Part shown: one piece after another, positions 51,876 through 62,750 of the stretch
Layout: each line of letters opens with the position of its first letter
Numbering within the stretch: position 1 is the stretch's first letter
Assembly (NCBI RefSeq): GCF_017377505.1
Contig: NZ_JAFREN010000015.1
Coordinates: 1 to 64,000 of the forward strand
Length of the DNA: 64,000 nucleotides
Reading direction: 5' to 3'
From: Enterococcus sp. DIV0212c
GTDB taxonomy: Bacteria; Bacillota; Bacilli; Lactobacillales; Enterococcaceae
The notes under the pieces: model-generated
What the model was told of the DNA's origin: nothing
Database searches by the model: none
The model's input: the letters and a program-made list of their open reading frames with translations, nothing else
Made by a program: the position numbers and the translations under genes

Positions 51876-51948
51876 GCCAGCTTAGCTCAGTCGGTAGAGC
51901 AACGCACTCGTAACGCGTAGGTCGTAGGTTCGATTCCTACAGCTGGCA
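51876..51948 (+). tRNA. tRNA-Thr (anticodon CGU)
   Basis: 73 bases, with GCCAGCT/AGCTGGC acceptor arm, D-loop AGTCGGTA, anticodon loop CTCGTAA (anticodon CGT in DNA) and T-arm TAGGTTCGATTCCTA. The anticodon stem ACGCA/CGCGT has one A-C mismatch next to the loop. No CCA is encoded. Confidence 0.95.
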
Positions 51949-53954: not shown

Positions 53955-53999
53955 TTAAGGTCATGCAAAAATGTTCCGTATAAAATAATTTTTTAGATA

Positions 54000-54047
54000 A
54001 ATAGGCCATACAAAATGAATTTAGTTTTGTATGGCCTATTTTTTGTC
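54000..54047 (+). terminator. Strong terminator before the tail module
   Basis: AATAGGCCATACAAAA (54000-54015) and TTTTGTATGGCCTATT (54025-54040) are a perfect 16-bp stem with T-run. It isolates the tail module from upstream transcription. Confidence 0.9.
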
Positions 54048-54189
54048 GAATTTATTTCAACGAATAAAAATTACCAATAGAAAGGTGAAAGAATAATGGG
54101 AGGATTGTGAACGGTAGCTTCCCATAAAATAAATTAATATTAGTTCATAGCAATTGCCGAGATAAACTTGCAAAAGGGAGAGAGTTAAA

Positions 54190-54477
54190 ATCGGGGGAAA
54201 TCAAGAATATAAGTATACAGATGCTGATGTAGATAGAATCGTCAAACAAAAGCATCATCGTTGGCAAAAAAGGAGAAAAGCAAAAGATATTTATAAAAAC
54301 CAAGAGAAAAAACCGTCTTCTTCATATAACGAAGCGGCCGCTATTTTTTTTAAAAATAATCTACCCTTGGATATAGATATTATTGAGTGTGTTGCTAATG
54401 AGAGCGTGGAAGTGACTAAAAAAAATGCACAAGCAATTGTAAAATTTGTTTCTTCTATAAGTAAAGAAAGAGTTTGA
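54190..54477 (+). pseudogene. 95-codon frame without a usual start codon at the edge of the tail module
   Basis: An open frame of 95 codons (lysine-rich, containing YTDADVDRIVKQKHHRW and later VTKKNAQAIVKFVSS) runs from a point just after an AAGGGAG site to a TGA, but contains no ATG or GTG near that site; the codon about 9 bases after it is ATC. It also contains the palindrome AGCGGCCGCT, unusual in this AT-rich DNA. It is probably the truncated remains of a phage gene, or a gene using a rare ATC start. I cannot name the family. Confidence 0.4.
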
Positions 54478-54580
54478 TCGAAGGACTCACCGTCCAAGCA
54501 TTGATGACATAAAAAGCAATGGAAACGTGCAAGCATTTATCCACGTAAAAAGGTCTGGTAAAGTAGCTAAGCTGCAATAA
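54461..54580 (+). pseudogene. Short out-of-frame coding remnant before the tail genes
   Basis: In the +1 frame relative to the previous fragment, 39 codons (including RRTHRPSIDDIKSN and FIHVKRSGKVAKLQ) run open to a TAA with no start codon. It looks like the end of another phage structural gene, or a frameshifted continuation of the preceding frame. The 5' edge of the tail module is therefore probably decayed. Confidence 0.3.
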
Positions 54581-54611
54581 AAAATAAGCAATCAAGAGGA
54601 GAGAATCAATT

Positions 54612-55169
54612 ATGGAAAAAGCAATTCATGGTAAAAATGTCAAATTAATGTTTCGTTTATTAAAGGAACGTGCACACAAAAAAGCGGGGTTACTAGCATT
54701 AGAAATGAGTCATACGTATAACCGCGAAACAAACGTAGAAACACAAGCGACTAAAGATGGAAGTGTAGCTACCGGCGGCAGTATCGAATCAAATATCGAA
54801 ATGGAATTTCTAAAAACAAATACAGAGGTTTTCAGTATGCTAGAGTATGCTTATGAAAATGGTGAAGAGATCGAAGTATGGCGAATTTTCTTTGACAATC
54901 CAGTAGAAGGTGTAAAACGTAAGTATAAAGCGCAATACGGTACTGGTATCTTAGGAAACTTCCCAGATGCTGCAGAAGCTGAAAGTAATGCATCTGTTTC
55001 GACGATGTTAAATCTAAATGGTTTATTAGTGAATGGAGAAGCGACAGTGGACGCTGAAAATGATGAGCTAGCGAAAGCATTCTTCTACGATACTGTGGTA
55101 GATGCTAAACCAGAAGAACCCAAAGCTATTTACGAGCCACAAACAACACCAACAGCGCCAGCTGAATAA
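54612..55169 (+). CDS. Major tail (tube) protein, TP901-1 family
   Basis: 185 aa, the typical size of TP901-1-type major tail proteins. The N-terminal GKNVKLMFRL, the T-K-D-G-S-V-A-T-G-G stretch (about 55-66), and MEFLKTNTEVFSML (about 73) fit the family. It would form the tail tube. GAGGAGAG precedes the ATG. It is first intact gene of the module; no head or portal genes are upstream. Confidence 0.87.
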   Translation: MEKAIHGKNVKLMFRLLKERAHKKAGLLALEMSHTYNRETNVETQATKDGSVATGGSIESNIEMEFLKTNTEVFSMLEYAYENGEEIEVWRIFFDNPVEGVKRKYKAQYGTGILGNFPDAAEAESNASVSTMLNLNGLLVNGEATVDAENDELAKAFFYDTVVDAKPEEPKAIYEPQTTPTAPAE

Positions 55170-55257
55170 ATATTGATTTAATCAAACATGACGATGTAGA
55201 GGCAAGACTCGTTCAGTTTTGTCTCTCATTGTTAAAAAACTTATTGGAGGAATAACC

Positions 55258-55665
55258 ATGGCTAAAAAAGCAACGAAAGCAGTAGTAACGATCGCAGACA
55301 AAAAATATCCTTTGATTTTTGGATTCAAATTTTTAAATGAAATCAATGCACTTCCAAAAGAGTCGGAACAAGTAGATAATTTAACACTATTGATCGGTGG
55401 ATTGATTGATGGTGATCCTAACGCATTAAAATTAGTTCTAATTGCAAGTTTAAGCACGTATGATGAGTTGGACGAACGTGACATCATTGAATACTTAGAA
55501 ACGTCAGATGAGGTTGAAGTACTTTTTGAAAATTTTATCGAGTTCTTAACATCGGCGCCGTTGTTGAAAAAACGAACGATGAAGATCAAAGCGACGATCG
55601 AACAAATGATGAAAACGGTCGAAGCGCAAGCCAAAGCCGGTTTGGAGCAAGCTATGACGAAATAG
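55258..55665 (+). CDS. Tail assembly chaperone, N-terminal (gpG-like) frame
   Basis: 135 aa from the ATG at 55258 (GGAGG 7 bases before). The beginning, with YPLIFGFKFLNEIN (about 17), matches the TAC_12-type chaperones of siphophages. In lambda-like phages this gene makes a second, longer product by -1 frameshifting into the next frame. Here the next frame (ending at 56024) is open backwards into this gene, past its own ATG. A possible slip site is G-AAA-AAA at 55566-55572. The chaperones coat the tape measure during tail assembly. Confidence 0.82.
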   Translation: MAKKATKAVVTIADKKYPLIFGFKFLNEINALPKESEQVDNLTLLIGGLIDGDPNALKLVLIASLSTYDELDERDIIEYLETSDEVEVLFENFIEFLTSAPLLKKRTMKIKATIEQMMKTVEAQAKAGLEQAMTK

Positions 55666-55718
55666 TTCTTAGCTGTTTTCGTTATTTTTCAGATATAACA
55701 TTAAAAGAAATCGAGCGA

Positions 55719-56024
55719 ATGACTCCTTGGGAATATTCATTGAGAACGAAAGCTTATTTACTGAACGAAAATGAAAAAGAACGAAGAGTATATGCGACCG
55801 CTTTTGCTAATCGTTTATTTAAGGCGGAGAAAAAGGGACGTTTCGCTATAAAAGATGTAAAAAGTATTTATGATTACGAGAAAAATGAGCAAAGGATTTT
55901 AGCGGATTTTAAACAAAAAAGTATTCAAAAACAGGAGAATACTGAAGATTTGTATGAAATGCGTAAACGTCTTTTACTAGCAAAAGAAGTAGTGGCAAAA
56001 AAGAACAAGGGAGGAGGTAAATAA
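55719..56024 (+). CDS. Tail assembly chaperone, second (gpT-like) frame
   Basis: 101 aa if started at the ATG at 55719. The frame is open upstream from about 55540, and the stretch just before the ATG, YDEIVLSCFRYFSDITLKEIER, looks coding (with the following TPWEYSL). There is no ribosome binding site at 55719. It is therefore probably expressed as a -1 frameshift extension of the preceding chaperone. Its stop overlaps the tape measure start (TAATG). Confidence 0.75.
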   Translation: MTPWEYSLRTKAYLLNENEKERRVYATAFANRLFKAEKKGRFAIKDVKSIYDYEKNEQRILADFKQKSIQKQENTEDLYEMRKRLLLAKEVVAKKNKGGGK

Positions 56025-59000
56025 TGGAAAAAACAAACGAATTAAAAAGTTCGATTACCCAGACAACTCAATTTTTAGAGGCGTTTTCGAAAACAGCACA
56101 ATCGGTTAGTCAGGTAAGTATTCAGTTAGGTAATGATATAGGAACAGTTGCAGGATCTATGGATTTGCTAGGTGCTTCAACTGGTTTAGTATCGAATATT
56201 TTAAAAGAATATGGGGAATCTAGAGAGACTTTTAGTAATGTTAAAGATGGTTTAGTGATTTTGAATCAAACACTTGGTAGTGATTTTTTAAATAGTATTT
56301 CAAGTACAGGGAGTAAGATTTCAGAATTTTTCTCAAACATTGAATCATCAGCAACAACAGCAATGTCCAACTTTCGTTCTACTATCGAAGAATCTGGTGG
56401 ATCTATTCTTTTTTTTCAAGATAAAATCAGTGGAATGGCTACAAGTACAACTGAATTATTTGGAAGTATGGGTTCTTTTGTCACATCTTCAATGAGTAGT
56501 CTAGGAGCTGCAATGAAAGAGGCAGGCGGAGTCGTTCCCTTCTTTCAAAGTACACTTGGAAATATGGCAACAAGTGCAATAGGTTCTATGAAAAATATAG
56601 GTCAATCAGCCATGATCGGAATGACTGGTTTCAAACTTTCGATTGCAAATGCAGGAGGGATCATGCCCGTTTTTCAAACTCAGATTGCCAATATGACTAC
56701 TGGGGCAATGGGAATCTTTAAAGCACTTGGAGCTTTTCTACTAGGTAATCCAATTGGACTTGGGCTAGCTTTGATTATTGCCGCCGTTGCAGCAATGACA
56801 GTTGCTTGGAAATCAAACTTCAATAATATTCAAGGGTTTGTCTCTTCTGCCTTTGACGTTATCAAGGGATCGGTTACAAGTTTAGCACCTGTCTTTAATC
56901 AGCTAATGTCTGTATTAAAACCAGTGGGCGCTTTTTTAATTGAGACTCTAGTGGTTGCGGCAGCAGCGGTAGTTGACGCCTTCAGATTTTTAGTGGTGTC
57001 TGTTATGTCTGTTGTGAATGGCTTTATGACACTATTAACACTAGGAAAGAGTGTTTGGAAACTTCTAACGGGTGATTTCAAAGGTGCTGATGAGGAATTT
57101 AGTAAAGTCAAAGATAGTATCAGTGGAATTGTCGACGATTTCAAAAATTTAGGCGAGAATTCAGCTGTTAAAGGTGTATTGACTGAATCAACGAAAGAAC
57201 TTGGAAAAGAAGCCGCCATCACAGGTGAGCAAGTCAAAGAAATGGGTGAATCCTACAAGACAAGTTTAGATGAAGCTGGAACGAGGATTGACAGCTTAAA
57301 ATCTAAATATTCCGAAGTTGGACAAGCAGCAATTACAGCCTTTTCAGGTGAAGGAATGGAACAATCAACAGCCCGTTATGAAGCAGCAGAACAAATCATG
57401 GGACGACATGCTGATACTATGAAATCAATGAAAGAAAAAGTTGGCGAAGAACTTGCAAAAGCTGATGAATTAACAGGTGAAAAACAAATTGCTGCACAGA
57501 GTAATGCCTATTCAATGATGATTACTGAAGCTAGTATCGGCTCTAGTGAAATGTTGACCATTGCAAATGCGAACAAAGAAATGCTGCTAAGCAATAAAAC
57601 TCTTGAAGGTCAGGAACTATCCGAAGAACAACGGAAAACACTACAAGAGCAAAATAACGTAGTTCGTGAAGGTTTAATGGAACAACAACAATTACTCATA
57701 GAAGCAAGCCAAAATAAATTGAAATTAGGCCAACAACTAAGTGAAACTGAACTACAAGCAACAGTTAGTGCTACGCAAGCTCTTTATCAAAATAGAAAAG
57801 AGCAGATGGTCACGAATGAAGAAGAAATTGCTTCTTTACAAAATCAAATCAATGAAACATCTGATGAAGTACAAAAAGCAAATTTAAATCAGCAACTTAC
57901 AGCTTTATCATTACACAATGAACAAGCCAAAGAGCAACAAACTCAAGCTGGTGTCGACATGTTGACGATGTTACAGCAAAATGAACAGCTAAAAGCTGAA
58001 ACAGTCTCTAATGGTCTAAAAGGGATGGGCGAAATGACGGGGCAAGAATTGGCCTATATTGTAAGCAAATATGGTGAATCAAATAATAGTGTCAACGATC
58101 AAATGACCGTGCTTGCTGGGATTTTACAAAGTAGAGGACTTGAAGCTAATGACAGTCTTGTAACAGCTTTACAAAGTGGTGATCTGACTCAAGTTGGCGC
58201 ACAATTAAGTCAAAATGCAGTAGCTGGAATCAGTAGCCTGCCAGATGAATTATTTCTACAAGGTGATATTGGGAAGAATAAATTGATTGAGGGATTGAAA
58301 TCAGGAGAGCTAGATGCTAATGAGGTCGGGGCATTGTTGATTAGTTCAATGAATACTGGTTCAGCTTCTAAAATCGGAGATGTTCAAACTGGAAGTAAAT
58401 TAATTTCAACAGCTGCAACGGATACATTGAAACAAAGAGATACCCAATTTAATGCAGCCGGTGGAGGTAATACAGGTGCTTATGCCGTAGGGGTTGTACA
58501 ACATAAAGATCAAGCAGAAAGTGCTGGGCGTGAAATTGGGATAGCTGCTAGTAATGCAGCAAAATCAGTAGATTTTAATTCAGTAGGCTCAAATATGGCA
58601 GCTGGTGTTGCTGCAGGGATAAATGAAGGAAGAGAAACAGCTGTTGAAGCGATGCGTCAATTGGTAAATGCAGTAAACGAAGAAGCGAAGAAAAAAGCTA
58701 TAATCAAATCCCCTTCAAGACTATTTAGAGATACTGTGGGTAAATTTATCGCACAAGGTGTGGCAGTCGGCATCGAAGAAGATACAGACGTTGCAGTTGC
58801 AAGCGCCAGAAATATGGTCACTGAAATTCAAAATGCTGTATCAAATACCAATGCCAATACACCTACAGCAACAGTAAAAGTAGAACATGATGTGCAAAAT
58901 AGTATGGTCAATCAAATACATGAGATGATCGAAACTATCAAAAATATGAAAGTCGTTTTAGAAAGTGGTGCCTTGGTTGGCGGAATTGGCAATCAAATGG

Positions 59001-59047
59001 ACGGCTTTTTAGGAAATCAAGCAGGCTTTACAGGGAGGTATCGCTAA
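56024..59047 (+). CDS. Tail tape measure protein
   Basis: 1007 aa. It has predicted helical, Gln/Ser/Thr/Ala-rich sequence, a hydrophobic region (about 230-262 and 290-345) usual in tape measures, and a C-terminal IKSPSRLFRDTVGKFIAQG motif (about 900) seen in many siphophages. Near the start are three repeats of about 44 residues ending in GG-x-x-x-FFQ or VFQ (about 125, 170 and 212). The rule of about 1.5 angstrom per residue would give a tail near 150 nm. GGAGGAGG precedes the start, which overlaps the previous stop. Confidence 0.92.
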   Translation: MEKTNELKSSITQTTQFLEAFSKTAQSVSQVSIQLGNDIGTVAGSMDLLGASTGLVSNILKEYGESRETFSNVKDGLVILNQTLGSDFLNSISSTGSKISEFFSNIESSATTAMSNFRSTIEESGGSILFFQDKISGMATSTTELFGSMGSFVTSSMSSLGAAMKEAGGVVPFFQSTLGNMATSAIGSMKNIGQSAMIGMTGFKLSIANAGGIMPVFQTQIANMTTGAMGIFKALGAFLLGNPIGLGLALIIAAVAAMTVAWKSNFNNIQGFVSSAFDVIKGSVTSLAPVFNQLMSVLKPVGAFLIETLVVAAAAVVDAFRFLVVSVMSVVNGFMTLLTLGKSVWKLLTGDFKGADEEFSKVKDSISGIVDDFKNLGENSAVKGVLTESTKELGKEAAITGEQVKEMGESYKTSLDEAGTRIDSLKSKYSEVGQAAITAFSGEGMEQSTARYEAAEQIMGRHADTMKSMKEKVGEELAKADELTGEKQIAAQSNAYSMMITEASIGSSEMLTIANANKEMLLSNKTLEGQELSEEQRKTLQEQNNVVREGLMEQQQLLIEASQNKLKLGQQLSETELQATVSATQALYQNRKEQMVTNEEEIASLQNQINETSDEVQKANLNQQLTALSLHNEQAKEQQTQAGVDMLTMLQQNEQLKAETVSNGLKGMGEMTGQELAYIVSKYGESNNSVNDQMTVLAGILQSRGLEANDSLVTALQSGDLTQVGAQLSQNAVAGISSLPDELFLQGDIGKNKLIEGLKSGELDANEVGALLISSMNTGSASKIGDVQTGSKLISTAATDTLKQRDTQFNAAGGGNTGAYAVGVVQHKDQAESAGREIGIAASNAAKSVDFNSVGSNMAAGVAAGINEGRETAVEAMRQLVNAVNEEAKKKAIIKSPSRLFRDTVGKFIAQGVAVGIEEDTDVAVASARNMVTEIQNAVSNTNANTPTATVKVEHDVQNSMVNQIHEMIETIKNMKVVLESGALVGGIGNQMDGFLGNQAGFTGRYR

Positions 59048-59766
59048 TGGCCATTGAAATAAATGAATATATCGAAATGGGTCGCTTCAATAGTAAAGAT
59101 GCTGGTTATTATGTTTTAGAACACGATGCCCCCAGTCCAGATGAACAAGAAATTATTGAAAGTGTTCCTTTTATGCAAGGGATTTATGATTTTTCAAGGT
59201 TATTGGGTGAACGTGTTTTTGATAATCGCAAGCTCACAGTGAAATTATATCGTCCGTTAACAAATTATGAGGAACGAAAGCGTTTAGAACAAGAAGCCAA
59301 AGAACAGTTGATGTTAAATGACATATCGGCAATCACTGATTCATGGTTGGATGGGTGTCACTGGTTAGGTAAATGTACAAGTGTAAGTGCAGAGGACGAT
59401 CAGAGTCGAAATTCACTGACATTAACGTTAAGCTTTGATTGTTATCCATTTGCTTTGAAAGATGCTGCCGGATATACTGACGAATTCGATGTTGATTGTT
59501 TTGTCGACGGCGTAGATCAGTGGACTGGTTTTTGGGTGAAAGGTCAACGAACTATTTTGTTGATCAATGAAGGTGTAAATGCAACGAGCCCAATTATTAC
59601 GGCAACTGAAAAAATGCAATTGATTACAGAAGCTGGGGAATCATTAGATATTCAAAAAGGGCAAAACCAAGATTTGTTCTTTAAATTAAAAAGAGGAGAA
59701 AATCGCCTCACGATTCTTGGAAACGGCCATATTCGATTTATTACTGAGACTGAGGTGATGGTGTAA
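59047..59766 (+). CDS. Distal tail protein (Dit)
   Basis: 239 aa of the Sipho_tail family. It has the typical N-terminal NSKDAGYYVLEHDAPSP and RVFDNRKLTVKL (about 60), with a second, galectin-like domain from about 150. Dit forms the hub that joins the tail tube to the baseplate. It begins by TAATG overlap with the tape measure gene and ends by TAATG overlap with the next gene, so the three are translationally coupled. Confidence 0.87.
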   Translation: MAIEINEYIEMGRFNSKDAGYYVLEHDAPSPDEQEIIESVPFMQGIYDFSRLLGERVFDNRKLTVKLYRPLTNYEERKRLEQEAKEQLMLNDISAITDSWLDGCHWLGKCTSVSAEDDQSRNSLTLTLSFDCYPFALKDAAGYTDEFDVDCFVDGVDQWTGFWVKGQRTILLINEGVNATSPIITATEKMQLITEAGESLDIQKGQNQDLFFKLKRGENRLTILGNGHIRFITETEVMV

Positions 59767-61178
59767 TGTACCGGGTAACGCTTTTCAAGGATGCTCAAGA
59801 TAAAAAAGGAACAGTGATACATGAACCAGCCAATTTCGGAAATAAAGTGAACTCAGGTGATTTGGAACTTTCTTTGGAAGGATTAGGGATCAGTACGTTT
59901 GAATTTTCGATCAATGTCAATAATCCCTTATATAGAAAAGCAGAGCCTATCGTTAATTTAGTCACGGTTTCTGATCGAAATGGCCAATTATTCAAAGGAA
60001 GAGTTGCAAAAATTTCTAATGTGATGAACAGTCAAGGCCATTTTATCGAAAAAATATTGTGTGAAGATCAAAAAGCATTTCTGTATGACAGTACGCAAAA
60101 ATATATGAAATCTAAAGTAATGACTGTTCGTCAGTTTTTAGAAAAGATATTGAATGAACACAATACTCAAGTAGAATCGTATAAAAAGATTTATATAGGG
60201 ACTGTAACTGTCACAGATTCTGAACAAATTTACCGTGGTTCAGACTATGGTAAAACAGCAGAAGTGATTAAAAATCAGTTGCTTGATCGTTTAGGCGGAT
60301 ATTTGATTCTTAGAGAAAAAAATGACCAATTGTATTTAGATTATTTAGCAGATTATGGTTCAACGTCTAACACTCCGTTACAAATCGCCCGTAATTTAAA
60401 AAGTGCTAGCCGTGAAATCGATATTTCGGAATTAGCTACGAGAATCGTACCTACAGGTAAAGATTTAGAAACAGACAGTACAACAGATGCGCAAACGAAT
60501 CAATTTCGTCCTAAAACTACGATTGAGAGTGTCAATGATGGCAAAAACTTTTTAGAAGATGCATCACTTGTTAAAAAATTTGGCGTGATTCAATCAATCG
60601 TCGACTTTCCTAATATAACCGATAAAAATACTTTAAAACTTAGAGCACAGGAATATCTCAACAATCAACGTTTGATGCTGGTTACCTGGAGTGCAGAAGT
60701 AGTCGAACTAGGTTTACTAGACAATCGCTATGAAATCATTAAGTTGGGGAATTCATATCCAGTATCCAATCCTTATTTGTACGAAAAAGAAACATTGCAA
60801 GTAATCGAGAAAAAAATCGATATTTTAAATCCGCAAAAAATCAGATTAACGATTGGTAGTGGAAAAAAGACATTTTCCCAATATCAGTTAGAGTATAAAG
60901 GAATGCGGGAAACATTAGAAACAGTAAAGACAAACGTCGGAGCAAGCAGTCGAACAATTGATAACTTAAAAATACAAGCGCAACAGTTAGAAAATCAGAC
61001 CGCTATTTTACCACATGTCGAACAAACTTTAAATCAACAACAAGAAGGATTACAAGAACAATCCAATACGTTGAATGAGCAAAAAGAAAGGATTCAAACA
61101 CAAGAAATACAATTAACAGAACAACAAAAGAAAATAGAAGAACTCTATACATTAGTAAAAGAATTACAGAAAAAGTAG
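59766..61178 (+). CDS. Tail-associated protein (Prophage_tail/endopeptidase-like), Tal type
   Basis: 470 aa. The N-terminal about 380 residues match the Prophage_tail (gp18-like) hub domain (for example SASREIDISELATRIVPTG, near 215). The C-terminal about 80 residues are a Gln/Glu-rich coiled coil. No lytic (CHAP, lysozyme, NlpC) domain is fused, so wall degradation is not evident. It would form the tip baseplate hub. Confidence 0.82.
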   Translation: MYRVTLFKDAQDKKGTVIHEPANFGNKVNSGDLELSLEGLGISTFEFSINVNNPLYRKAEPIVNLVTVSDRNGQLFKGRVAKISNVMNSQGHFIEKILCEDQKAFLYDSTQKYMKSKVMTVRQFLEKILNEHNTQVESYKKIYIGTVTVTDSEQIYRGSDYGKTAEVIKNQLLDRLGGYLILREKNDQLYLDYLADYGSTSNTPLQIARNLKSASREIDISELATRIVPTGKDLETDSTTDAQTNQFRPKTTIESVNDGKNFLEDASLVKKFGVIQSIVDFPNITDKNTLKLRAQEYLNNQRLMLVTWSAEVVELGLLDNRYEIIKLGNSYPVSNPYLYEKETLQVIEKKIDILNPQKIRLTIGSGKKTFSQYQLEYKGMRETLETVKTNVGASSRTIDNLKIQAQQLENQTAILPHVEQTLNQQQEGLQEQSNTLNEQKERIQTQEIQLTEQQKKIEELYTLVKELQKK

Positions 61179-61186
61179 GTGGAAAA

Positions 61187-61918
61187 ATGCCGGAACAAAA
61201 ATTTTATGACACTCAACCCACAGGTGAAAATCATGAGGTCGACTACAAAGATCCTACAGATGTAGACGAAATCGAAGAAGCTATTAAATTCGGTGTCATA
61301 GATCCATTAACGCAAAAATACGCATTGTGGGTAAGAACCAAAATGTGGCGGCGTCATGTAAGGGAAGCTATTGCTAGAATTTCGGAATACTCTAGCGTTT
61401 TATTTAATCGAATCAAAGAAATTGCTGAAAAAACTGAAAAAAGACAAACTCAAGTTGAACAGCGACAAACGATAATAGAAGATCAATTTAGAGAGGTTCA
61501 ACAGAATGCAACGGTAGATAGTGAATTGATTAATGCGAGAAGCAGTGAACTGTATGGGAAATTTCCAGTGTTGGATGATCGATTAGAAAATATTGAGCAG
61601 TTACTTGTTAAATTCTTACCAATAGGTTTTGATATAACTCTTCAACATGATCTGGGTATACAGCCAGAAATCAACGTTCGAACATGGACACATGGAATTG
61701 GAGTCATGGATATAGGAACAGAACCTGTAGGACTATTCGGAGGTTCGGCAAGTCAGTCTATACCTTGTCAGATTACACATGTTGGTGCTAGTGAAAGTAT
61801 TGTGTCGCTACCAGTTGAATATAAAACGGATGCAAAAATTATGATGATAGATGAATTGAATTATATGCTCGTTGACGAGGAGAATCTACGTTCGATTATG
61901 TTTGAACTACGTAAATAA
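61187..61918 (+). CDS. Baseplate/tail structural protein (BppU-like)
   Basis: 243 aa. The N-terminal PTDVDEIEEAIKFGV...LWVRTKMWRRHVREAIARISEYS portion is common in enterococcal and listerial baseplate proteins, followed by a coiled coil (about 85-145) and a beta-rich C-terminal domain. It probably links the hub to the receptor-binding protein. The family name is a guess from position and pattern. Confidence 0.6.
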   Translation: MPEQKFYDTQPTGENHEVDYKDPTDVDEIEEAIKFGVIDPLTQKYALWVRTKMWRRHVREAIARISEYSSVLFNRIKEIAEKTEKRQTQVEQRQTIIEDQFREVQQNATVDSELINARSSELYGKFPVLDDRLENIEQLLVKFLPIGFDITLQHDLGIQPEINVRTWTHGIGVMDIGTEPVGLFGGSASQSIPCQITHVGASESIVSLPVEYKTDAKIMMIDELNYMLVDEENLRSIMFELRK

Positions 61919-61933
61919 GAAGGGGGAAAAAAG

Positions 61934-62545
61934 ATGGAATTAGAAAAGATTTATAGAGGAATGGAAAATGGAGCAGAAACGATTCAGGGTAATTTTGAAA
62001 ACACTGTAACAAAAACAAGTGATCAAGATATCACAGGGTCTAAGAATTTTATTCAAGCACCTTTATTTGCAGGGATGAAATTATTAGATGAAGGTAATTT
62101 TCAGCTATCTGTTGTAGATGGAAAGGAAGGGCAACTATCGGGTACAGCTTTGAATGGGAAGATAGTTGGGTTTGGTAATACTGTTGGTAATCTTTTGGGA
62201 GCATCTGGGCAAACGCCTGTTACAGTAAACAAAACAACGCATGAAGCCATTGTTAATAAAGATGGGTATTATGCAATTTTGATTCAATCTTGGTGTCAAC
62301 CATCAGGGACTGTTGATGGTTATTGGTACTATAATTTTGTTAAAAATGGTGTGAGAGCAGGCGGTGAAGATCGAATTGCAGGTTGGGGATCAAATGCTTG
62401 GAAGAATAGAAATGATGGTTTTGGAATTTATTATGGTAGACTAAAAAAAGGAGATCGCTTAGGAGCAACGATTGAAACTAATATTACAGGACAGATAATT
62501 AGTTGTGGCCTAAAAACGGCTATTTTTGTTAGATTGCAAGATTAG
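61934..62545 (+). CDS. Tail fibre/receptor-binding protein with C1q-like tip
   Basis: 203 aa. Residues 1-75 give a short phage collar/fibre stem (SDQDITGSKNFIQAPLF, about 30). The C-terminal about 110 residues form a beta-rich domain with NKDGYYAILIQSW, GGEDRIAGW and LKKGDRLGATIET, patterned like C1q/TNF-type jelly rolls found on phage tips. It would bind the target cell. The last gene of the module; a terminator follows. Confidence 0.65.
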   Translation: MELEKIYRGMENGAETIQGNFENTVTKTSDQDITGSKNFIQAPLFAGMKLLDEGNFQLSVVDGKEGQLSGTALNGKIVGFGNTVGNLLGASGQTPVTVNKTTHEAIVNKDGYYAILIQSWCQPSGTVDGYWYYNFVKNGVRAGGEDRIAGWGSNAWKNRNDGFGIYYGRLKKGDRLGATIETNITGQIISCGLKTAIFVRLQD

Positions 62546-62574
62546 GAGTAGCTATATAAAATTTTATAAATTAA

Positions 62575-62620
62575 AAAGAGTGAGATAATAATGATTTTTT
62601 CTGATTATCTCACTCTTTAA
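62575..62620 (+). terminator. Terminator after the tail module
   Basis: AAAGAGTGAGATAAT (62575-62589) and ATTATCTCACTCTTT (62604-62618) are a perfect 15-bp stem. No lysis gene lies between the last tail gene and it. Confidence 0.85.
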
Positions 62621-62750
62621 TTGGTAATTAAAATAAACTCAAATTGATAATTTCCCTAAAGTTTTTCCAAAATCATCAAGTCTATACTTTCTTTTCTTCC
62701 TATAGAAAGTTATAATAAAAGGCGTATGATTTAAGGAAAAGGGATGACGA

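Follow-up and report, generated by a model that had tools for sequence, protein, structure and literature searches.

A headless phage tail operon upstream of rodA in Enterococcus may be one part of a chromosomally dispersed F-type tailocin

Results

A complete tail operon without head genes

The 64,000-nucleotide stretch studied here (positions 1 to 64,000 of contig NZ_JAFREN010000015.1 of Enterococcus sp. DIV0212c; hereafter the window) belongs to a 3.54-Mb genome, in which it is contig 7, and carries, just upstream of rodA, a phage tail operon that we call tail A (54612-62545, plus strand). Listing of the open reading frames (ORFs) and comparison with Pfam, PHROGs and NCBIfam give eight ORFs, all intact and in phage order, as a preliminary description of this DNA had proposed. 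They encode a major tail (tube) protein of the TP901-1 family (54612..55169; PF06199, TIGR02126), the G frame of a tail assembly chaperone (TAC; 55258..55665; PF12363), a second chaperone frame in -1 frame (TAC_GT; 55719..56024, open from about 55530), which is a probable frameshift product, a tape measure protein of 1007 amino acids (aa) (56024..59047; recognised by a PHROG match), the distal tail protein Dit (59047..59766; phrog_33), a 470-aa Tal (59766..61178; PF06605), a BppU-like upper baseplate protein (61187..61918; PF18667, with TP901-1 ORF48 as its PDB match) and a terminal fibre with a BppL-type N-terminus and a C-terminal head that is exchanged between species (61934..62545). The chaperone frames overlap by 133 nucleotides in the -1 frame in all five copies of tail A compared, which fits the expectation of programmed frameshifting. 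The order at the tip is that of TP901-1, namely Dit, Tal, BppU and BppL. Judged by its gene content, tail A is a complete predicted TP901-1-like non-contractile tail.

No head, lysis, integrase or repressor genes are recognisable among the ORFs of at least 60 aa from the upstream 61-aa gene to rodA (53955-62750), in agreement with the preliminary description, and the ORF listing contains no connector genes. The locus does not hold the head, packaging, integrase and lysis genes of a complete temperate prophage. Neither Pfam nor PHROGs detects a contractile sheath family, the hallmark of R-type tailocins and eCIS, among the eight proteins, and Pfam finds no lysozyme or CHAP domain in Tal. What is present is the non-contractile tail set without head genes that characterises F-type tailocins; the lysis genes and the regulator that such clusters also include are not recognisable in this cluster, and the candidates for them are unlinked. 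The fibre had been described as C1q-tipped. This assignment is not supported, as no Pfam family matches the fibre and the AlphaFold2 model is poor (pLDDT 42.8); it is the N-terminus that resembles known structures, being similar to phage receptor-binding and baseplate proteins in the PDB (best E 5.6e-5), with TP901-1 BPP among the matches. Phage DNA similar to tail A was not found at megablast sensitivity, and the phage relatives of Tal among the matches listed share 38-40% identity with it.

Tail A is bounded by two inverted repeats with T runs, one between the 61-aa gene and the operon (53983..54057) and the other before rodA (62575..62618). Both are probably terminators, as had been suggested from the sequence; this reading is based on the repeats and T runs, and a simple terminator scan listed neither of them. 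The placement of the module between tRNA-Thr (51876-51948) and rodA is also right as an interval, but a MucBP surface-protein gene and the 61-aa gene intervene on the tRNA side.

Tail A is kept at one site and is under purifying selection

A search with Tal in 105 genomes of the family gave matches in 15, of which five, including that of DIV0212c, reach at least 70% over the full length. The other four carriers are E. ureasiticus DSM 23328, E. quebecensis LMG 26306, E. rivorum LMG 25899 and G079 (genomes are cited by their number in our set where needed, G000 being DIV0212c). Among the 22 genomes of the genus set, all of which have upp and rodA, tail A occupies the identical upp-rodA site in four; the copy in E. 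rivorum is elsewhere. All ORFs are open in these five species or genomes, and no head, lysis or integration genes are recognisable in or beside the five copies in the stretches listed, apart from a scaffold-like relic considered below. In G074, a fossil of the 5′ part of tail A is fused to the rodA flank, evidently a loss by deletion. The nucleotide-based tree has low crown support (35-79), so that both a single acquisition followed by losses and transfer within the genus fit it.

Pairwise dN/dS ratios against the window copy (Nei-Gojobori; some pairs are near saturation) are 0.01-0.02 for the major tail protein, 0.03-0.13 for TAC_G, 0.09-0.11 for the tape measure, 0.04-0.07 for Dit, 0.08-0.11 for Tal, 0.05-0.06 for BppU and 0.10-0.15 for the fibre in pairs with the same head, compared with 0.01-0.05 for rodA as the reference. 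TAC_GT gives 0.06-0.08 in two pairs, the third (0.52 at a dS of 0.03) being uninformative. The tail A genes are thus under strong purifying selection, with dN/dS of about 0.01-0.15, and this includes the tape measure and the tip, which the preliminary description had singled out for this comparison. The fibre C-termini in E. quebecensis and E. rivorum are unrelated; the fibre ratio of 0.67 against E. quebecensis arises because the head there is a different domain (Gp10_C). Since dS in tail A (mostly 0.4-1.5) is in the range of that in rodA (0.8-1.1), the copies appear to date from about the time of the species splits and to have undergone some recombination.

It had been argued that a decaying prophage would be indicated if related genomes had genes for head, lysis and integration at precisely this site. 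Four outgroup genomes, in which the upp-rodA interval spans 27-51 kb, do carry a tail element with lysis genes there (G086, L109-L111; G072, L104-L105; G075, L102-L103; G085, L106-L108), and one further genome has two lysins; the former element is unrelated to tail A, and neither case is an intact version of it. One protein of the outgroup elements belongs to a PHROG whose label is head and packaging. In the element of G075, the only one tested by family, the regulators are of XRE type and of the RinA family, and a holin and an Amidase_5 endolysin accompany them. In the G086 element, C-terminal copies of the tape measure alternate with a small lipoprotein family, an array whose layout suggests exclusion or immunity. 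A lipoprotein-like gene of about 250 aa lies on the opposite strand just before rodA in six genomes without tail A (L084, L085, L087, L092, L093 and L094).

A control cassette and a second headless tail operon

A cassette of XRE, ImmA, ArpU and holin genes, with no other phage genes beside it, is found on contig 39 of the same genome (G000:C39, about 67760-70220; L303 7761-10220). XRE and ImmA/M78 are on one strand, and ArpU and the holin are divergent from them. ArpU scores 101 bits to TIGR01637, a family that NCBIfam names packaging/lysis transcriptional regulator, and the holin scores 88.7 bits to TIGR01593. Relatives of the cassette are present in 17 of the 22 genus genomes, with ArpU and XRE in all 17, the same holin in 16 of the 17 and ImmA in each of the nine loci that are sufficiently long. 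The holin is followed by an Amidase_5 endolysin gene in G077 and E. rivorum.

The only other tail-tube family match in the genome is on contig 34, in a minus-strand operon near rplU (tail B; G000:C34, about 73443-82531; L029), in which head or lysis genes are likewise not recognisable. Relatives of its tape measure, several of them matching along part of it, occur at 57-100% identity in 17 of the 22 genomes (own included). All 17 share the left flank, the right flank leads to rplU/rpmA where it was read, and ORF listing shows the 17 operons to be free of genes for heads, holins and endolysins. Unlike Tal of tail A, that of tail B carries Phage_lysozyme2 and CHAP domains. At about 1.5 angstrom per residue, the tape measures of tail A (1007 aa) and of the DIV0212c copy of tail B (666 aa) would correspond to flexible tubes roughly 150 and 100 nm long. 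Median dN/dS against the DIV0212c copy is 0.03-0.15 for eight genes, 0.26 for the tape measure, 0.28 for a small coil ORF and 0.61 for the terminal fibre, which combines a constant N-terminus with many forms of C-terminal head as judged by eye. Of the 18 genomes with the cassette, tail B or both, 16 have both.

The same promoter architecture precedes tail A, tail B and the holin

Upstream of the holin, tail B and tail A, we have observed tandem hexamers at 11-bp spacing, the last of which ends 21 nucleotides before a -10 element; the same architecture is also found before stand-alone phage lysins. At tail A it consists of four units (at 54075, 54086, 54097 and 54108) and a -10-like hexamer at 54135-54140, so that the whole promoter covers 54075..54140 on the plus strand. 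An alignment of the 34 holin and tail-B sites spans 66 columns without a gap, and within each class the repeat units and the -10 are better conserved than the 21-nucleotide spacer. A scan for canonical -35/-10 promoters gave no excess over shuffled sequences (33 vs 30.6) and none at 54075-54140.

Hold-out scans with position weight matrices (PWMs) were run on both strands of 213,264 bp of the DIV0212c genome. With the PWM from the 17 holin sites, the window site scores highest of the untrained sites (23.4; next -4.0), the PWM from the 17 tail-B sites ranks the holin site first (5.7; next 2.6), and the two classes combined again rank the window site first (16.0; next -4.2). In a profile scan of 525,268 bp, six of the eight untrained matches mark the promoter of tail A, one in each copy. 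When 15 lysin sites are added to the PWM, the window site scores 22.8, the next untrained sites being a lipoprotein promoter (19.5) and a site at 9.7, and the six tail-A copies, including the E. rivorum locus, score 17.3-22.8. None of 5000 Markov-simulated upstream regions reaches the window value of 22.8. The prophages of G077, G091 and G080 have no profile match in the stretches examined.

Genes behind the motif elsewhere in the genus

Across the genus, 18 untrained profile matches reach at least 18 bits, and all were inspected. Eleven are just upstream of a peptidoglycan hydrolase recognised by Pfam, and in several of these cases further phage genes are missing from the neighbourhood. Of four others, one each precedes the gene of a beta-helix protein, of a Fic protein and of a lipoprotein, and the fourth precedes an ORF that has no Pfam match and is followed by a lysozyme gene. 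The remaining three resemble chance hits, in G073 (no gene in place), in G075 (an ABC transporter) and at G074:1635521 (inside a gene), as do two weaker matches in G079 and G083. The late regulators of the elements in G075, G001 and G076, the three tested, belong to the RinA family.

Several of the genes behind the motif deserve separate mention. At the rodA site of G087 (L096 3269-4899) and in G074 (L365 3231-4915), lysin genes of the Amidase_5 and Phage_lysozyme2 types occur as a pair, and both members of the pair have a motif copy of their own. A 150-aa lipoprotein gene (G000:C37:11190-11835; L360 4191-4836), with a relative in G076 (L378), is a candidate immunity gene. The Fic-domain protein of G077 (L369 3380-4770) and the beta-helix protein of G087 (L367 3506-5430) could possibly be cargo or extra tip proteins.

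Remains of a head operon at the 5′ edge

Between its promoter and the major tail protein, tail A retains a scaffold-like ORF (54190..54477, plus strand; DUF4355 family in relatives), which is a head-gene relic, and a leader element (54492..54558, plus strand). PF14265 reaches its cut-off in three of four relatives of the ORF. The ORF is open in the four rodA-site copies without an ATG, GTG or TTG at the conserved start, and its dN/dS of 0.2-0.44 indicates weak constraint. An AUC or AUA codon follows a ribosome-binding-like sequence (window 54190; L019, L021 and L023). The leader is about 70 nucleotides long; G077, G091 and G080 have it in prophages and G087 on a phage contig, in each case immediately ahead of a scaffold-like gene. 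We considered whether 54492-54558 is a conserved RNA fold; there is no credible Rfam match, the fold z-score is +0.47, and the element is the scaffold leader of prophages. The order in E. rivorum is leader, scaffold-like ORF and major tail protein, and that in the rodA-site copies is scaffold-like ORF, leader and major tail protein. The presence of leader and scaffold-like gene in prophages of the genus, together with these variant orders, suggests that tail A probably derives from a phage head/tail operon that lost its capsid and connector genes. The 5′ edge had been called broken, which holds for the relic without a standard start, but the edge also includes the head-operon leader, and all of it is behind the promoter.

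Discussion

We consider it rather probable that tail A is one operon of an F-type tailocin dispersed over the chromosome, with the regulator and holin, two tails and lysins at separate loci, and that its particles would be released by co-induced lysis. The evidence for conservation is strong. That for shared promoter architecture is good, not conclusive, and from it we infer that tail A, tail B and the holin may be under shared control. In such a system, damage or stress would relieve the XRE repressor via ImmA, and ArpU would then be made and would activate the holin, tail A and tail B promoters, presumably by binding to the repeats; tail A would be transcribed from its own activator-dependent late promoter at 54075-54140. 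Tails would assemble in the cytoplasm, the holin and a lysin, stand-alone in several species, would open the cell, and the freed tails would bind relatives via their exchangeable BppL-type heads and presumably kill them by opening the membrane. This proposed working is by analogy with the Listeria monocin. A domesticated tail particle was one of two possibilities raised in the preliminary description, and the same-site headless copies, the purifying selection and the promoter in all six copies examined support it. For the suggested release by another route, the ArpU-holin cassette, which is unlinked and shows the promoter architecture of tail A, is now a candidate, the release itself being a prediction.

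Several observations weigh against one shared regulon. The 18 genomes with cassette or tail B form one clade, and two of them have one part only, tail B in G083 and the cassette in G078. The PWM from tail-B sites alone scores the tail-A sites at -13 to -30, and that from five tail-A sites places the holin site sixth (-4.7) and tail B outside the best eight. Genome-wide, the window site scores 16.0 bits with an E of 0.051 and ranks fourth in its genome, and noise in other genera extends to 19.9 bits. A PWM from lysin sites only gives the window site 9.0 and the fifth place, after tail B, the holin, the lipoprotein site and one other place, and the lysin training sites themselves came from the holin/tail-B profile. 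None of the four matches listed in the DIV0212c genome is before a lysin, some motif-bearing lysin promoters in remnants adjoin a RinA-family regulator, and the link to this particular ArpU is drawn from position and motif only.

A silent, decaying prophage remnant that is intact by chance would accord with the head-gene relics at the 5′ edge of tail A, the scaffold-like ORF under relaxed constraint and with no standard start, the patchy presence at the site (4 of 22) and the deletion in G074. The tail genes, however, have dN/dS of 0.01-0.15 at a dS similar to that of rodA, the same gene set is present in five species and the promoter is kept in six copies, so that we regard decay as quite unlikely; the idea of a fresh prophage remnant, the other possibility raised earlier, does not accord with headless copies at the same site in other species either. 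A domesticated tail could instead have merely inherited its promoter from a phage and serve as a surface adhesin, a decoy or an anti-phage receptor blocker, with no co-regulation with the holin cassette. The motif also precedes lysins in prophage-like remnants whose regulator is of the RinA family, so that late promoters may share an ancestry. Yet the contexts of tail A, tail B and the holin differ, and the repeats, the 21-nucleotide spacing and the -10 are kept while the spacers diverge; moreover, the motif is missing from the prophage stretches examined in G077, G091 and G080. This explanation is unlikely, if less so than decay.

Two further alternatives would require heads. Rather than a weapon, tail A might be a tail bank on which satellites or defective phages draw to complete capsids that lack tails of their own (tail piracy). 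Its leader and scaffold relic show descent from a head/tail operon of genus prophages, and the same genome holds a prophage remnant (G000:C6, about 70195-71998; L304 10196-11999) with a weak terminase small-subunit match below the cut-off, directly followed by a holin and then a 247-aa ORF 35% similar to a prophage lysis-region ORF; no structural genes are in the stretch read, and an ArpU-like ORF just below the family cut-off is upstream. Still, PF05065, PF04860 and PF05133 (the HK97 capsid and two portal families) have no match in the whole DIV0212c genome, and tail A is devoid of connector genes, which makes the tail bank about as improbable as decay. A dispersed gene transfer agent with its head cluster elsewhere in the genome would resemble RcGTA in that one activator, GafA, drives the structural genes and the lysis cassette (PMC6363796), just as one activator is proposed here to serve both kinds of promoter. 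RcGTA has heads and packages DNA, whereas capsid and portal genes of the three tested families are absent here, and this last alternative seems to us very improbable.

The dispersed tailocin that we favor is composed of ordinary parts in an unusual arrangement; what would be new is an F-type tailocin taken apart over the chromosome. The Listeria monocin (PMC6872733) is a phage-tail-like particle that has a CI-like repressor and a metalloprotease, two oppositely directed promoters, a tail module and a lysis module with holin and endolysin, is SOS-induced and kills relatives. Tail-like genes, a repressor-metalloprotease module and a holin/lysin set have predicted counterparts here; unlike the monocin, one contiguous 17-gene cluster, the regulator/holin, the two tail operons and the lysins are unlinked. 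Element pp2 of E. faecalis V583 (ef1276-ef1293) is likewise a set of tail genes kept in the chromosome without head or integrase, but combines regulators of its own with lysis genes in a single block; its excision was reportedly never detected, and it belongs to the species core genome (PMC3675006). G001 contains a contiguous pp2-like element with a RinA-family regulator and a holin, whose tail proteins are only distantly similar to those of tails A and B (23-42% identity where BLAST aligns). The genes flanking this element are, we presume, rbfA and truB. The similarity to the TP901-1 tip is seen in the BppU-like protein, which matches ORF48, and in the fibre N-terminus, which matches BPP and related PDB entries; in contrast to TP901-1, tail A has no phage head, a short Tal and exchangeable fibre heads, and is fixed in the chromosome. 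Among the titles and abstract openings listed for tailocins with Enterococcus and for dispersed or domesticated tails, with subscription papers outside the scope, none describes a split tailocin of this kind.

A broader reading, which we offer more tentatively, is a genus-wide, dispersed and vertically inherited tailocin, in which one ArpU-type switch and holin would fire two unrelated tail lineages, one with a lysozyme and CHAP tip and one without, together with species-specific lone lysins and possibly immunity lipoproteins, and in which fibre heads would be swapped like warheads. Taken singly, any of these pieces would look like the remnant of a prophage. The promoter motif provides a handle for finding further members. 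If these loci do form one regulon, phage-derived weapons can be split over the chromosome and still work, and environmental enterococci would possess a genus-wide antagonism system with modular target specificity.

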